Assembly: GCA_032433595.1 (NCBI GenBank)
Contig: JASWJB010000604.1
Location: 1 to 12,473 of the forward strand
Direction: 5' to 3'
DNA: 12,473 nucleotides
Source: Conoideocrella luteorostrata
Lineage: Eukaryota; Ascomycota; Sordariomycetes; Hypocreales; Clavicipitaceae
Each line of letters starts with the position of its first letter. Within the stretch, counting starts at the first letter, position 1. The notes beneath the pieces are model-generated. The model saw only the letters and a list, made by a program, of their open reading frames with translations, was not told the DNA's origin and ran no database searches. This document shows, in pieces, positions 1,816-12,473 of this stretch. A program made the position numbers and the translations under genes.

Positions 1816-1878
1816 TGTCAACACAAAAAGAACATGCTCTAATTGCGCAGCAATTATTGTATATTATAACCTGTGACA
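1816..1878 (-). repeat. LTR-like end of the copia element (TGTCA...TGACA)
   Basis: On the minus strand this 63-bp segment begins TGTCA and ends TGACA, the short inverted TG..CA ends typical of LTRs, and it stops exactly where the primer-binding site begins. It contains TATAATATA, a possible LTR core promoter. At 63 bp it is much shorter than ordinary fungal LTRs, so it is either internally deleted or the outer boundary is misplaced. The 3' end (1816) is more secure than the 5' end (1878). A matching 3' LTR left of the window would settle it. Confidence 0.45.
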
Positions 1879-2650
1879 TGTGGAAACCTCGTAGAAGGCG
1901 GTACGGATACCATGGCGCAAACAACATTAGTGTTTTTGCAAGCCATGACCAACCATCCGGATGTCCAAAAAAAAGCACAAAAAGACATAGATGCAATCGT
2001 TGGTTTGGATCGAGTACCAACCTGGACTGACTTTGGCAAACTTCCCTATGTCACCCAGGTGGTCAAAGAACTGCTACGATGGCGACCTCCTGCTCCAAGT
2101 GCATTTCCTCATGAGCTGACCCAAGGTGTGAACTACTCTTTTTTGAGATTGCCACTATGAAAACTAACTTCTCGTAGATGATGAGATTGATGGCAGAAGA
2201 ATTCCTGCCAAGTCGACTATTATCGTGAATATATGGGGTATACACCACGATCCAGCACGATATTCAGAGCCAGAATCGTTTGACCCCTCAAGGTTTGAAG
2301 GAAAGATAGGTACAGCTTCCGCACATGCAAACTCTGGTGATTATGAGGGACGAGATCACTTCGCATATGGAGCAGGTCGGCGAATCTGACCCGGTATTCA
2401 TCTAGCTGAGCGTGGTTTGTTTTGTTCCGTCGTCAAGCTTCTTTGGGGTTTCAAAGTGTCCCAAAAGCGAGACGTGGTAGGACATCCCATTCAAATTGAT
2501 ACAGATCCGCGTACAGGCTATCGCGATGGCTTTCTGAACCAGGTGCTCCCCTTTGAGGTAGACGTCAGTGTAAGATCAGAGAGGCACAGGGAAACGATAA
2601 TCGCCGAGCGTAGAAGGGCTGAATCTGAGGTGTTTAGCAAGTTTACGTAG
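1879..2650 (+). pseudogene. Cytochrome P450, C-terminal half; heme-Cys codon is TGA
   Basis: Homology starts at the I-helix (CGNLVEGGTDTMAQ, 1879-1920; oxygen-binding G-G-T-D-T). The K-helix ExxR is KELLRW, with Glu at 2068 and Arg at 2077. An intron at 2126-2177 (donor GTGTGA, branch CTAAC at 2164, acceptor TAG) restores the frame to DDEIDGRRIP. The PERF-like region is FDPSRF (about 2279-2296) and the heme loop is FAYGAGRRI-stop-PGIHLAER (2360-2413). The TGA at 2387-2389 stands where the thiolate cysteine must be. After it the frame stays open to TAG at 2648-2650 with a normal microsomal P450 tail. Roughly the first 280-300 residues (membrane anchor to H helix) are absent, cut off at the retroelement junction. 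With neither heme ligand nor N-terminus it cannot work as a P450. It resembles fungal secondary-metabolism P450s and may once have served the neighbouring oxidase or peptide cluster; that link is inference. Confidence 0.9.
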
Positions 2651-3864: not shown

Positions 3865-5494
3865 TCACACAATCGGCACGTAGTACCTCATCTTGTTCTC
3901 CGGATCCCACTTGGCTTTGAGCTCTCTCAGCTTTTCCAATCTCCAGTCCTCCCAGCCGTACACCTCGCGCAGGTCCTCATTGCCGTGTGCGTAGTTGACG
4001 TAGGCGCGCAGGCGCTCCGGGTCATCGCTGGCTTCCAGCAAGATCTGGCGCAGGGTCTTCCCGTACCTGTCGGCGAGCGAGTCGATCCTTGGGTCAGGCT
4101 TGTACTGGACGTACGACGTGACCAGGATCTCATCGCTGCGGTGTGGGAACGCCGTGCTCCGCTCGTCGACGGCCTGCACCGCTTGCGTTGAGTAGCCCTC
4201 CAGCAGGAAGAAGGATCCCGCAATCTCGGGGATTTCCTGGAAGCTCTTGTCGATGAAGTCGAACACCTTGCGAACCGCAGACACGTCGAACGTCTTCAGT
4301 CCGATTGGATACCGGAGAGAGGTCAGACCGTAGGCGCATCCGGGCCCATCTACGTCCTGGTAGGTGAGGGCAGCCAGTTCGTGGGTCGTTGCTACACCCG
4401 CCTGGATTGACATGGCTCCGATGTCGTGCAATGGCCTGGCGTATTCACGCGCTTCGGCCTCCGGGCCGTCGTAAATGATGCCATACCAGATGATGGGCTG
4501 CGTGCGATTAGTTTTTGACTTCTGATGATGAAAAATCTCATCGTGATGTGTAGTAACTTACATGGTCGGGGTTAATTTCCACGACTCTGATGATATAACT
4601 CCAATGGATCGCTTGCGCTGGTTGGCTCTTCTGCATTTCATTATGGAGACTGAACAGAGCCTCGAGCTTGTCGCCTGGGAATATGAATATCTCGTAAGAC
4701 CATTTGGGAGCTCGAGGGTTAACGTCGTAGATGCGGTATGTCCACTCAGATACCAGGCCAAAGTTGTGGCCAGCGCCCCTAATGGCCCAGAAGAGGTCGC
4801 GGTTCGAGTCTTCGGATACAGTCACGACATCGCCGCTCGGAACAATGAGCCGCGCCGAGACGATCTGGTCGGCGGGAAGGCCATATTCACCCTGCAACCA
4901 CCCATGACCGCCGCCGAGAACAGGCGCTGAAATTCCAACATTTTCGCAGATTCCAGTGACTGACAGCAGTTAGACTTGGCCTCAACAACCACAAACCCCT
5001 GCGCGGGATGAATGACTACTTACCTGTACGCTTCCCTGCCTCGGCAAGTGCGTCGACGACTTGCTTAACATTCGCCCCACCCCCAATTTTGGCCGTCTTG
5101 CCGTCCTCGGCGACCGTTACGTTGCTCATGTTACGGAAGTCGATCTGAATGGCATTTTGCGCCAAAGCCATCGCTTCTGTCGCGCCGTGGCCTCCGGCTC
5201 TTCCGAAGAATGCCATGTTTTTCCCATTTGCATAGCGGACCTGATTGGTGGGCGTGAATATTTGGTTAGTAGAATGAGCGGCAAATAACGTCGTGCAATG
5301 CTTGGGCACAGGCGTTTCCTTACAGTCTCTTGGATGTCTCTCTCGGTCGCCACCTGCACCAGCGCGGCAACAGTAGGAGCATGATATTCTCTCCACCGAC
5401 TGACAAGACCGAGGAATTCCTTGTCGCCGGGGACGACGACGTTGACGCCTGGTGAAAGCCGCGGCTTTAATTCTGCTGCAATCTGAAGACTCAT
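3865..5494 (-). CDS. BBE-like FAD-linked oxidoreductase (4 exons, 472 aa)
   Basis: Exons are 5494-5324, 5240-5024, 4959-4562 and 4497-3865. The introns of 83, 64 and 64 bp have GTAAGG/GTAAGT donors, CAG acceptors and TACTAAC, CTAAC and CTAAT branch sites. The start at 5494 is favoured by A at -3. The PCMH-type FAD domain covers about residues 35-215, with GRAGGHG carrying His75, the expected 8-alpha-histidyl FAD attachment, and GICENVG carrying Cys134 at the position of the 6-S-cysteinyl attachment in berberine bridge enzyme, then LGGGHGWLQGEYG. The C-terminal BBE segment is also present (YVNY at about 428, YG at 442, and WDPEN near the end). No signal peptide is visible, so it is probably cytosolic. 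Length and both flavin sites suggest an intact oxidase that moves a hydride from substrate to FAD and reduces O2. Its substrate is unknown. It could tailor the nearby peptide product, but that is context only. Confidence 0.93.
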
Positions 5495-7889: not shown

Positions 7890-8205
7890 ATGAAGCCCGC
7901 CATTATCTCCAGCTTTATCTTAGGCCTATTTACCTTGGGTGCCGCTCTCTCATTTGGTAAGACTCATGGTCAAGTTATAGCCAGCAGATTCATGAAGCTC
8001 AAGTTTATTTTAAGGAAATCCTCGCCTCTATGTCAATGAAGGCTACAAGCGCAGCAACGATGAAATCGATGTCGCTGATGCTTTCAAGCGTGATGGCGCT
8101 GAGATTGACATCGCTGATGCTTTCAAGCGTGATGGCACTGATATTGACGTCGCTGATGCGTTCAAGCGCGACCAGAATGAGATTGACGTTGCGGACGCTT
8201 TCTGA
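7890..8205 (+). CDS. Kexin-processed RiPP precursor with four core repeats (2 exons, 85 aa)
   Basis: Exon 1 (7890-7956) encodes a secretory signal: MKPAIISS followed by a hydrophobic run to about residue 22. The 58-bp intron 7957-8014 has donor GTAAGA and acceptor TTTTAAG; it is the only acceptor found that joins the signal in phase to exon 2 (8015-8205). The ATG has A at -3. After a short leader ending GYKR come four 11-residue units, SNDEIDVADAF, DGAEIDIADAF, DGTDIDVADAF and DQNEIDVADAF. The first three are followed by Lys-Arg and the last ends at the stop codon. This is the layout of UstA-type and other kexin-processed precursors: signal peptide, dibasic Kex2 sites, repeated cores. The UstYa-family gene lies tail-to-tail 238 bp away. 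Unlike ustiloxin-type cores, these contain no Tyr, only a terminal Phe, and are strongly acidic. The mature product and its activity are unknown. Confidence 0.88.
8053..8202 (+). repeat. Four tandem 39-bp core-plus-KR coding units
   Basis: Units start at 8053, 8092, 8131 and 8170. The first three are 39 bp (11 core residues plus Lys-Arg); the fourth is 33 bp and ends at TGA. Variation is concentrated in the first three or four codons, plus one Val/Ile change, while I-D-x-A-D-A-F is invariant. Many differences inside the core are synonymous (GTC/GTT, GCT/GCG, GAT/GAC), which points to selection on the peptide and not just recent DNA duplication. Confidence 0.95.
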
Positions 8206-8443: not shown

Positions 8444-9301
8444 TTACTCGACATATCCGACATTCTCCGCCGGTAAGCCTTCCAAAATATCATCCGTCGG
8501 TATATAATCATCCGTGACAACATATCCGCTGCCCTCTGGGCAGTGCTTGAACCTGTTCAGTTTCTTCGGCCCGTCCCATTCTGCGTTCTCTGGACGCTTG
8601 TAGCACGCTGTATGACGCTTCGCAAAGTCCTCTAGTGCGTCCCAGTTGCGGCACATGCGGTACTGGCCAAGCCCGGCCACGACCTCGGGTCTCCGATCTG
8701 TAGCGCGCGGCGTATCGTCGGCATCGCAGATGACTTGGCGGCGCAGAGCGTCAAGGCAGTGGCTGATGTGGTGCCACGAGCGCGATTGTCCCTCGCCGTG
8801 GCGATATTCCTTTAGGGATCTGTAGATGTTCTTCAGACAGTGAAGGTTGTGGATGCCATGCAGAATGTAGAGTCCTTTAGTTTGGTCCCAGGGAAACCTC
8901 TGAGCTATTCGGAGGTCGTGGGCGCGGGCGTAGTCATCCGACAGTGCAACTACAGCCAGGTCGTCATCGATGCTCATCCATGCCTTGTCTTGAACTGTCT
9001 CATTTGTAGAAGAGTATTCTGTCAAGTAGACATATGGCTCTTGGCGAGATCGACTTATGTGGGCGTACTTCGAAGGGGACTCTTCGTGCTTGACGGGGGC
9101 CACTGGACGAGAAGATAGGAGGAGCTGGGCCACGTTCATCACTAGTGAAACTAACAAAATCCCTATTACCAGCCGATTAAAGAGCGAGATTCTGATCGGA
9201 GGCGGTGTTGTCAAGCATCGTGTTTCTTCAAAGCTCTCATTCTGTCTATAGTCAGACAGCAGAGCCTTGCGTCGCTCCATGCTTTCTTGAGATGGAGACA
9301 T
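8444..9301 (-). CDS. UstYa-family (DUF3328) oxidase, single-pass membrane protein (285 aa)
   Basis: The frame is open upstream to 9553, but the start at 9301 (AAAATGTCTCC, A at -3) gives the normal family layout: a short cytosolic N-terminus, one membrane helix (about residues 44-64, FNRLVIGILLVSLVMN) and a lumenal domain. The two hallmark HxxHC motifs are HNLHC (151-155, within HGIHNLHC) and HISHC (178-182), followed by LDALRRQVICDAD and a C-terminal CRNWDALEDF, all typical of DUF3328. UstYa-type enzymes are metal-dependent oxidases that cyclise or otherwise oxidise fungal RiPP cores in the secretory pathway. The adjacent repeat-bearing precursor is the obvious candidate substrate. No intron is seen, and all catalytic histidines and cysteines are present. 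Which reaction it performs on a Tyr-free core cannot be read from sequence. Confidence 0.95.
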   Translation of the reverse strand: MSPSQESMERRKALLSDYRQNESFEETRCLTTPPPIRISLFNRLVIGILLVSLVMNVAQLLLSSRPVAPVKHEESPSKYAHISRSRQEPYVYLTEYSSTNETVQDKAWMSIDDDLAVVALSDDYARAHDLRIAQRFPWDQTKGLYILHGIHNLHCLKNIYRSLKEYRHGEGQSRSWHHISHCLDALRRQVICDADDTPRATDRRPEVVAGLGQYRMCRNWDALEDFAKRHTACYKRPENAEWDGPKKLNRFKHCPEGSGYVVTDDYIPTDDILEGLPAENVGYVE

Positions 9302-10144: not shown

Positions 10145-11440
10145 ATGCGTTTGGCACTTGTCAGTGATCGCGTAGGTCTGATTATTATGACAGTCATTCT
10201 CTGCGTCCTCGTTATTCTTTCTCTTTATTGTCGACTCAAGGCCAGGAAATTAACGACAGCCGGACTTGAAATTGATGACTGGCTAGCTGTAGTTTCCCTG
10301 GTAAGTCTTATATAGCGCGTTTTCCAGGCTCGCTCAGCATGCAAGCTAAATCGAAAGCCACGGAACACTGACGGCAAGTAGGTGTTCACTCTCGGTATCA
10401 ATGGCATCTTCCTTGCTGGCACGATCGACGGTGCGATTACTGGTCATTCCAACATTGTGAACGGCATATCGGTGACGAATGACCTCGAGATATTGACCCA
10501 AAAGTACAAATATGCATATCAAACGAGCGAGAAAATCGCCTTCGGGCTCATTAAATTATCCATTTTGTTTCTCTGGAAACGTCTCTTTGGCAGATCTAAG
10601 GCCCTGACCATCCTCTGTTATGTTATGATAGGCGTCATTGTAGCCTGGACAATCGCATTCTTCTTCGAGACTGTTTTCCAGTGCGGATCGAATTGGCCTA
10701 TGAACTGGGCTCCCATCTTCGTCTTTCTTGCCGAGTGTACCGCTAGTCTTGACGTGCTCACCGTATTCGGTGTCTCCGACGTAGTTACGGACTTGATTAT
10801 CTTAGCTATGCCCATCCCGCTCATCTGGTCCCTTCGAATGCCGAGAAAGAAGAAGGTCGCCGTAACGGGCATCTTTGCCCTTGGTTTCTTGTGAGTTCAT
10901 TCACCTTTTCACACATGAACCATCTTATGCCGCGGAAGTTGACTAGAATACAGTACGATCGCCTCCGGAGTAGCCCGCTTGTTTTACTATCTCGCCACAT
11001 CTTATAACCATGTGGAAAATCCCGATTTCATCGGCGATGTCACTCTCACGCTACTTTGGTCAACCATAGAGCTTAACGTAGCTATGATAGTGTGCAGCCT
11101 CCCCGTCTTGAGTCCCATCTTCGAAAAATTCCGCAGTAATTTAGTCTCGCTGTCAGGTCGCTTGGGCATCGCCAAGTGGACTAACATCTCAAATGAGCGC
11201 TCAGACCGCAAGGGAAGCAACCAGATCAGTGATATATTGCGGGCAGAAAACGGCGCTGCCAGAAAAGAAGGACAGGGCTTTTCGACTCATCGGCATAATT
11301 ATATGTGGCCGGGAGGGCACGGAGCGGTCTCGTCAGCTGGCTTTTTCGGAATCCAGGACTCTCCTGACCACAGTCGAGGCATTCTTGCGCGTACTGAGAT
11401 TTCTACCACGATCGAAGAGAATAAGCCGCGTAGGATATAA
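10145..11440 (+). CDS. Fungal rhodopsin-domain seven-helix membrane protein (3 exons, 383 aa)
   Basis: Exons are 10145-10300, 10382-10890 and 10954-11440. The introns of 81 and 63 bp have GTAAGT and GTGAGT donors and TAG and CAG acceptors, and rejoin the frame exactly. The start in GCCGCCATGCG is the first that gives a full helix 1. Seven hydrophobic segments are visible at about 10-28, 44-65, 100-119, 127-147, 183-202, 210-236 and 255-276. Family marks are DDW at 44-46 before helix 2, the Cys153/Cys171 region between helices 4 and 5 (likely an extracellular disulfide), SDVVTDLIILAMPIPLIW, and IELNVAMIVCSLPVLSPIF in helix 7. A polar C-terminal tail of about 100 residues follows. These features fit the fungal rhodopsin-like / SAT4 membrane domain family, which overlaps PTH11-type receptors. 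No extracellular CFEM domain is present. Such genes often lie beside metabolite clusters, but their role is mostly unknown, so membership here is uncertain. Confidence 0.9.
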
Positions 11441-11893
11441 TATGTTTAATAAGAACATAAACGAGGGGCTTTGTTTCTTAGATGTCTGTCTAAACGAACT
11501 TAATATACGGTTAGGCTATAAAGGAATAGGTAATAGTTAGTTAAATGTTCTCGTTTCTTAACCCGCATAGTACAAATTGCTACTAGCTGTCTAAGGGGTA
11601 GGCTAAGCTTATATTAATAAGATAACGCTATTATTCTTCTAATACTAATGTCTTGTGTTATAGACAGAGCATTGCATTATATTATAAATATTGCTATAAA
11701 ATTCATAAAGTGCTATAACTACTCTTGTGGCACTTTTAGCAAAGAAGATTGCAATAGCCATAGTTTCTACATTATTTCTATCACTAAATTTAGTTATAGG
11801 GGTATAAAAGAAGCAAAAGAACTAGAATATATACCTCTGCTGTGTTAGGCTAGCTCTGTTTTATGTGATAAGCATAATAGGAGTTGTATAAAT

Positions 11894-12016
11894 AGGGTTG
11901 GGTTAGGGTCTATTTTGCTAAAGAAAGCTAATCTGCTCGCCTCGTGTAATCTAATCCCTTATTTATATAAGCTATCTAGAGAGAGGAGAGGTTCTATACA
12001 AAGGAAAAGAGAGCTA
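11894..12016 (+). repeat. Direct repeat, copy 1 (about 123 bp)
   Basis: This copy begins AGGGTTGGGTTAGGGTC and ends GAAAAGAGAGCTA. It matches copy 2 at 12352-12473 over its whole length with few substitutions and about one single-base indel; the copies are some 457 bp apart. The start of each copy resembles degenerate telomeric TTAGGG repeats. Confidence 0.9.
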
Positions 12017-12134
12017 GCTAGTATTACGACCCTAGCTAGCGGGCTGCAAGAAGGCCAGCCACGGAGCGCCCAAAACCCCCACTGCCACACGTGACCATCG
12101 GGACGGAACTAGGGATGTTCCGTATAGAGAATAT

Positions 12135-12256
12135 AGTTTACTCTAGGTTTATCGTAAACTATTAGTGAACTATACAAAGAGTCACTATAGGTTCACTGTA
12201 AACTAATAATAAATTATTTAAAGACACTATAAAGGTTTACTTAGGTTCTAAGTAAA
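12135..12256. repeat. Cluster of short inverted repeats (fold-back / MITE-like)
   Basis: AGTTTAC at 12135-12141 is complementary to GTAAACT at both 12154-12160 and 12198-12204. AGTGAAC at 12164-12170 pairs with GTTCACT at 12191-12197. TTTACTTAG (12236-12244) and CTAAGTAAA (12248-12256) form a perfect 9-bp stem with a 3-base loop. The group lies between the two direct-repeat copies and could be the core of a small non-autonomous element. Confidence 0.6.
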
Positions 12257-12351
12257 TTACCTACTATATAAGCACCACTAAATTACACTCTTTAGATATC
12301 TTAGATAGTTAGTCTTTAATAGTTATTTAATTATTATAATTATTTAGGGTT

Positions 12352-12473
12352 AGGGTTGGGATAGGGTCTATTTTGCTAAAGAAAGCTAATCTGCTCGCCT
12401 AGTCTAATCTAATCCTATTTTACACAAGCTATCTAGAGAGAGGAGAGGTTCTATACAAAGGAAAAGAGAGCTA
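12352..12473 (+). repeat. Direct repeat, copy 2 (runs to the window edge)
   Basis: This is the second copy of the unit at 11894-12016, preceded by a clean TTAGGGTTAGGG (12345-12356). It reaches the right edge of the window, so it may continue, or a third copy may follow. Two LTRs of a tiny element, a local tandem array, and subtelomeric repeats are all possible; the ends do not show TG..CA. Confidence 0.88.

Follow-up and report, generated by a model that had tools for sequence, protein, structure and literature searches.

Does a short run of Lys-Arg-separated peptide repeats encode the precursor of an ustiloxin-type fungal RiPP and, if so, which peptide would it release and through what gene structure? 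The question arises in a window of 12,473 bases, the whole stretch of DNA analyzed here, which is an entire contig (C604) from an assembly that totals 46.4 Mb over 620 contigs. UstYa/DUF3328 proteins are the enzyme family of ustiloxin-type (dikaritin) pathways, and a gene for such a protein adjoins the repeats. In this study, we found that the precursor locus is real and belongs to a known kind, and that its IDVADAF core family is kept across genera.

Repeats and signal-like start of the precursor

Based on translation and TRF, four units, SNDEIDVADAF, DGAEIDIADAF, DGTDIDVADAF, and DQNEIDVADAF, lie at 8053–8202 of the forward strand with Lys-Arg between them, as a first-pass annotation of this DNA had described. 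TRF resolves them into four 39-nt units (period 39 nt, score 167), and the stop codon (8203–8205) directly follows the final Phe of the fourth unit. Six of the seven core codons differ silently among the four copies, while the sole replacement is one V/I change. Because the differences in the core codons are almost only silent, the repeats look selected and not like the product of chance. In the KEP survey, the definition of a KEP asks for three or more tandem repeats, each 8 or more residues long and bounded by Kex2 sites (KR, KK, RK, or RR), together with an ER signal peptide (PMC7329392); the window holds four 11-residue units delimited by KR.

Directly upstream, at 8022–8052 (+), lies a diverged fifth unit, ...RLYVNEGY-KR, in which Tyr replaces Phe. 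It falls within the first copy (8022–8085) of the direct-repeat family D1, which matches the reference copy at 66% over 64 nt, and the string VN(D/E)GYKRS is common to this unit and to the related precursor P0003. The unit count of four given at first pass therefore holds for the intact units, the diverged one having been left uncounted. The leader units ending in GY-KR, in P0003 and at 8022–8052 of the window, look like diverged cores with Tyr, and therefore a single precursor may bear both Phe-ended and Tyr-ended units.

To define the core, we used a pattern that permitted few residues at each core position and demanded a final F, and it recovered 47 cores in 14 precursors (13 relatives and the window). 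Units outside this pattern were omitted, namely some of those in P0003, P0005, P0011, and P0012 and the diverged unit of the window; they include Tyr-ended (P0012) and Pro-ended (P0003) forms. Among the 47 cores, positions 1–6 are occupied by I (42), D (46), V (42), A (42), D (45), and A (41). The four residues preceding the core are variable, with E or D immediately before it in 36 of 47 cases. The core is followed by Lys-Arg in 32 cases, by KH, KK, or RR in 4, and by the end of the protein in 11. Because the four residues ahead of the core vary and the last seven are conserved, we interpret each unit as a variable 4-residue spacer followed by a conserved 7-residue core, IDVADAF. Of the "four near-identical 11-residue cores" proposed earlier, the four KR-separated 11-residue units thus stand, but the conserved core is limited to their last seven residues. 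The four cores of the window contain no Tyr, Trp, Lys, or His, and Phe is their only aromatic residue.

The start of the precursor is an ATG followed by a signal-like hydrophobic stretch, MKPAIISSFILGLFTLGAALSF(G), at 7890–7956 (+), recognized by translation, hydropathy, and alignment. Residues 4–20 have a mean hydropathy of 2.15, in agreement with the signal sequence proposed at first pass, and the start aligns with those of P0003, P0005, and P0012. However, the signal-like start and the repeats lie in different frames. The frame opened by the ATG at 7890 ends at a TGA at 8037–8039; the open part of the repeat-unit frame begins at 8014, runs up to the stop at 8203–8205, and contains no Met codon. 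The two would be joined if 7957–8014 is spliced out or if the frame break is an error.

Relatives of the precursor

Searched against proteins, the spliced model had 12 matches at E values up to 1; ten of them lie at 3.8e-7 or better, and the other two are P0011 (6e-3) and P0012 (0.13). A profile search, limited to the 7986 candidates with the most words in common, returned 13 proteins; 12 were already known, 11 of them in the profile, and P0133 was the only new one. IDVADAF is exact in 12 of the 13 relatives (P0001–P0010, P0012, and P0133), while P0011 carries a diverged form. The units of the relatives are mostly followed by KR, most come after a signal-like start, and 2 to 5 units match the core pattern. 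Their leaders differ: in seven of the 13 (P0004, P0005, P0007–P0010, and P0133), the signal-like end and the first core are no more than about ten residues apart. None of the relatives carries a functional name. No second copy was found in the source genome; NCBIfam yielded no match, and the PDB a single one at chance level (E 0.41).

The relatives belong to eight named genera, Monosporascus, Xylaria, Anthostomella, Nemania, Parahypoxylon, Apiospora, Hypomontagnella, and Daldinia, and to one Xylariaceae species. By taxonomy, Monosporascus, Anthostomella, and Parahypoxylon (Xylariales) and Apiospora (Amphisphaeriales) are Xylariomycetidae; Xylaria, Nemania, Hypomontagnella, Daldinia, and the Xylariaceae species we take to be Xylariales. 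A UstYa homologue appears linked to five of the 13 precursors, judged from locus tags and from equal-sized contigs of the same organism. Neighboring locus tags connect the precursor and UstYa pairs P0004/P0028 (010970/010980), P0006/P0020, P0008/P0108, and P0012/P0027, and P0010/P0018 come from the same organism on contigs that both measure 483,780. For the other eight, no UstYa partner was found among the 120 listed of 136 UstYa matches.

The adjacent UstYa gene

The UstYa/DUF3328 gene (P0013) occupies 8444–9301 of the reverse strand as a single open frame of 285 aa (PF11807, E 1.4e-23). It is convergent with the precursor and lies about 240 bases downstream of it; in the KEP survey, DUF3328 genes are most numerous at the place immediately beside the KEP gene (PMC7329392). 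The protein carries HNLHC and HISHC, that is, the motif pair HxxHC(x)nHxxHC, and has one probable membrane helix. In an alignment of 35 sequences of our own choice from the UstYa database matches, H151, C155, H178, and C182 are invariant and H154 and H181 nearly so. The structural model, with a low overall confidence (mean pLDDT 63.4), contains a confident helix at 40–63, which we read as a membrane anchor, and the motifs lie in helices 150–167 and 176–193. Similarly, CctR of the cyclochlorotine pathway belongs to this family and has an HxxHC pair, one membrane helix, and a helical motif region; a 2025 study tied its HxxHC pair to a binuclear copper center (PMC12435403). Unlike the enzyme proposed here, CctR hydroxylates a non-ribosomal peptide.

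The UstYa protein had 136 database matches, of which 120 were listed, one being the window's own. The best named match among those listed shares 73% identity and comes from Stachybotrys elegans (Hypocreales), in which the precursor protein searches found no precursor. In a tree of 102 of the 120 listed proteins, picked by length and with incomplete linkage labels, the six precursor-linked members need 6 changes, against a shuffled mean of 5.9, which gives no support for one origin.

Intron or frame shift

At first pass, the precursor had been drawn as a two-exon gene from which a 58-bp intron is removed. The excision itself was reproduced: removal of 7957–8014 (+), which in the frame of the start reads (G)KTHGQVIASRFMKLKFILR, joins the start and repeat frames into an 85-aa translation with the signal-like start and the four intact units. 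The donor, G/GTAAGA, is strong, the acceptor, TTTTAAG, has a T-rich stretch ahead of it, the GC content of 7957–8014 is 0.36 vs 0.48 and 0.50 in the flanks, and the length is near that of most introns kept for comparison (59–87). In addition, the frame rescue is exact, although 317 of 5000 dinucleotide shuffles of 7951–8040 gave a comparable rescue when a GTAAG, GTGAG, or GTATG donor with a [CTA]AG acceptor was counted. The acceptor is of a scarce type. The 11 introns kept, five from two open genes of the window and the six of ten calls that have consensus-like GT donors, have 10 CAG or TAG acceptors and one AAG; four calls with GC or odd donors were left out (acceptors AAG, GAG, TAG, and CAG), and all 15 together have 12 CAG or TAG acceptors and two AAG. 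An AAG acceptor thus has a precedent in this set. By eye, the nearest branch-like site, CTCAA, appears weak. Other splice models were also considered: 23 GT/GC-AG joins link an upstream ATG to the repeats, of which only 7957–8014 and 7957–8041 use the GTAAGA donor, and none was judged better than 7957–8014.

The relatives bear on the splice more directly. The string SRFMKLK, encoded within the claimed intron in the frame of the start, matches P0003 in the right frame and at the corresponding place (0/2000 and 0/1000 shuffles), and P0003 had been retrieved by the spliced query, which is without SRFMKLK. More weakly, THGQVI of the same stretch matches THGTVL of P0012 (2/1000 shuffles, one of 12 tests). 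Among the other relatives, the match to this stretch is marginal for P0005 (40/1000), ranges from 60 to 927/1000 for nine, and has no anchor in P0002. In frame-aware alignments to P0003, the unspliced sequence with one frame shift scores 208–218, compared with 187 for the spliced model and 156 for neither. The spliced model scores higher for P0005, P0133, and P0004 and ties for P0001; however, these four say little on the splice because they lack the stretch in question. Furthermore, the donor GT is part of Gly-Lys codons, and Gly-Lys is also present there in P0003, P0005, and P0133. An intron could still be accommodated if the open frame of P0003 itself runs across an intron that was left unspliced.

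Weighing these points within the ustiloxin-type reading, we regard removal of the 58-bp intron, with an 85-aa precursor of four intact units as its product, as plausible but somewhat doubtful. For the alternative, a frame-shifted precursor, which could be a pseudogene of recent origin within a decaying cluster or reflect an assembly error in a single-exon gene that is itself intact, the case is evenly balanced, which places a frame break or assembly error slightly above the intron. Besides the fit of P0003 to the unspliced frame with one shift, a neighboring P450 piece (1870–2650) is broken, the contig ends are rich in repeats, and the databases hold relatives with an unbroken frame. On the other hand, the UstYa, FAD oxidase, and rhodopsin-domain genes of the window are all open, the four repeats and the terminal stop are intact with nearly all differences silent, and the argument draws mostly on one homologue, P0003, from an 850-base contig. 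The two-exon gene is unsecured and somewhat disfavored by the P0003 and P0012 matches and the P0003 alignment scores. Without a splice, the sequence as given encodes no full-length precursor, and the window copy may fail to be expressed in full, given the frame change between its start and repeats and its doubtful intron. More generally, a tidy GT-AG splice can mimic an exon junction even at a place where the relatives point to coding DNA.

Product class and proposed maturation

Based on the repeats, the KR sites, the signal-like start, the adjacent UstYa gene, and the five UstYa-linked relatives among 13, the locus is probably of the ustiloxin type, with a Kex2-processed precursor trimmed to IDVADAF and oxidized by the adjacent UstYa; the same features lend good support to the kexin-processed RiPP-type precursor proposed at first pass. 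The precursor would enter the secretory pathway, and, by analogy with the family, Kex2 would cleave at Lys-Arg, trimming would strip the variable spacer of four residues together with the basic residues, and the adjacent UstYa, from a family in which one member has been shown to depend on copper, would oxidize and most likely cyclize IDVADAF. The computed [M+H]+ values are 750.3668 for linear IDVADAF and 748.3512 after loss of two H, and 764.3825 and 762.3668 for IDIADAF. Because the core is without Tyr, Trp, Lys, and His, the likeliest site of oxidation would be the C-terminal Phe, which would be bonded to a carbon of an internal Ile or Val, a link of the kind reported between Phe and Leu in victorin; a second option is desaturation of Ile or Asp, as in phomopsin. 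The victorin core reportedly ends in Phe as well. Chemistry at Phe, Ile, and Asp has precedent in reports on these two compounds: the victorin ring of Cochliobolus victoriae is closed between the side chain of the C-terminal Phe and an internal Leu (PMC9233826, a review), and gene inactivations suggest that DUF3328 homologues make the dehydro-Ile and dehydro-Asp of phomopsin (PMC10880069). The victorin core differs in sequence, and the Phe-ended core here is no more than suggestive of a victorin-type Phe-aliphatic cross-link.

Like the ustiloxin, phomopsin, and asperipin-2a systems, the window combines a signal-like start, KR-separated repeats, and an adjacent UstYa gene with HxxHC(x)nHxxHC. 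Unlike those dikaritins, it has cores without Tyr, a single UstYa gene, and a start and repeats in different frames. Since the cores are without Tyr, we file the locus only with the wider UstYa-linked KEPs and not with the Tyr-ether dikaritins proper. Several observations speak against the ustiloxin-type reading. The start and repeats are out of frame unless spliced, and P0003, the only long homologue that is informative here, argues for an unspliced gene. The four cores have no Tyr, whereas Tyr occurs in 65.6% of the repeats of DUF3328-linked KEPs, according to the survey (PMC7329392). The nine Pfam-scanned stretches of the contig showed no peptidase, methyltransferase, or tyrosinase, eight of the 13 relatives have no UstYa partner among the 120 listed matches, and the linked UstYa members do not cluster in the tree beyond shuffled labels.

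The repeats might instead encode a linear peptide that is secreted without modification, for instance a pheromone or signal, with UstYa as a chance neighbor. A core well kept between genera and lacking Tyr would suit a signal. However, UstYa linkage recurs in five relatives, and IDVADAF does not seem to resemble known Sordariomycete alpha-pheromones. The KEP survey bears on both sides of this comparison: alpha-factor-type pheromones are among the KEPs, of which 6120 out of 7878 have no DUF3328 neighbor, but nearly all pheromone KEPs, with three exceptions, also lack such a neighbor (PMC7329392), while a DUF3328 gene adjoins the precursor here. Collectively, these points make a linear peptide improbable, and we retain the ustiloxin-type reading.

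Novelty and significance of the core

The first-pass suggestion that the product may be new holds to the extent that the core occurs in no paper text searched; on the other hand, the core itself is present exactly in the 12 database relatives. IDVADAF had no match in the searchable text of papers, and VADAF had text matches, none on fungal peptides by title. Specifically, IDVADAF does not appear in the searched parts of PMC7329392, PMC12048977, PMC8403587, PMC9233826, PMC10880069, and PMC12435403. The tables of the KEP survey may already catalogue it. A 2021 study reported an unspecified ustiloxin-like RiPP cluster in all Hypomontagnella species studied and in two Hypoxylon species (PMC8403587); precursor P0008 comes from Hypomontagnella, and that cluster could be of the same family as the IDVADAF precursors. 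Type G-6 of the KEP survey, which includes Monosporascus and Hypoxylon, was also considered and is probably another family because G-6 is said to contain Tyr (PMC7329392).

Tentatively, and with doubt prevailing, IDVADAF might form the backbone of one cyclic peptide that is near-constant across Xylariomycetidae and closed by a Phe-aliphatic bond through a single UstYa copper enzyme. According to the KEP survey, KEP repeats are highly diverse between fungi, and the three DUF3328-linked RiPPs that it names are closed through Tyr (PMC7329392). If the proposal is true, the constancy of IDVADAF would point to a conserved signal or defense compound and not to a fast-changing toxin. Furthermore, a Tyr-less 7-residue core in eight named genera, several with one adjacent UstYa, offers a compact test system for the action of a single UstYa enzyme on Phe, Ile, Val, or Asp.

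Other genes and repeats of the contig

A berberine-bridge-like FAD oxidase gene (PF01565, PF08031) lies at 3868–5494 of the reverse strand, open over four exons and 472 aa; it had only one splice solution under the intron rules used, which accepted introns that end in CAG, TAG, or AAG and contain a branch-like motif. This oxidase is a possible member of the pathway. At 10145–11440 (+) lies a rhodopsin-domain gene (PF20684), open over three exons, whose introns end in TAG and CAG and whose first donor is ambiguous (380 or 384 codons). The cytochrome P450 remnant at 1870–2650 (+) was scanned against Pfam in two pieces, which match profile positions 266–410 of 462. A TGA in it falls at the expected place of the heme-ligand cysteine, and because of this replacement the piece looks like a pseudogene. 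No peptidase, methyltransferase, or tyrosinase was seen among the nine stretches of the contig scanned against Pfam.

Repeats occupy both contig ends, at 58–223, 590–647, and 11890–12473. They include one tandem array of 24-nt units in 6.9 copies, arrays with 12- and 24-nt units, and one with 44-nt units at 12140–12231. By eye, a stretch near 11890–12010 recurs at 12350–12473. Elsewhere in the assembly, the whole genome contains 57 PF11807 matches, some of which are exons of one gene. Seven UstYa-domain matches fall within about 9 kb of contig C54 (117619–126436; L016, L017), a region that resembles a multi-UstYa peptide cluster.
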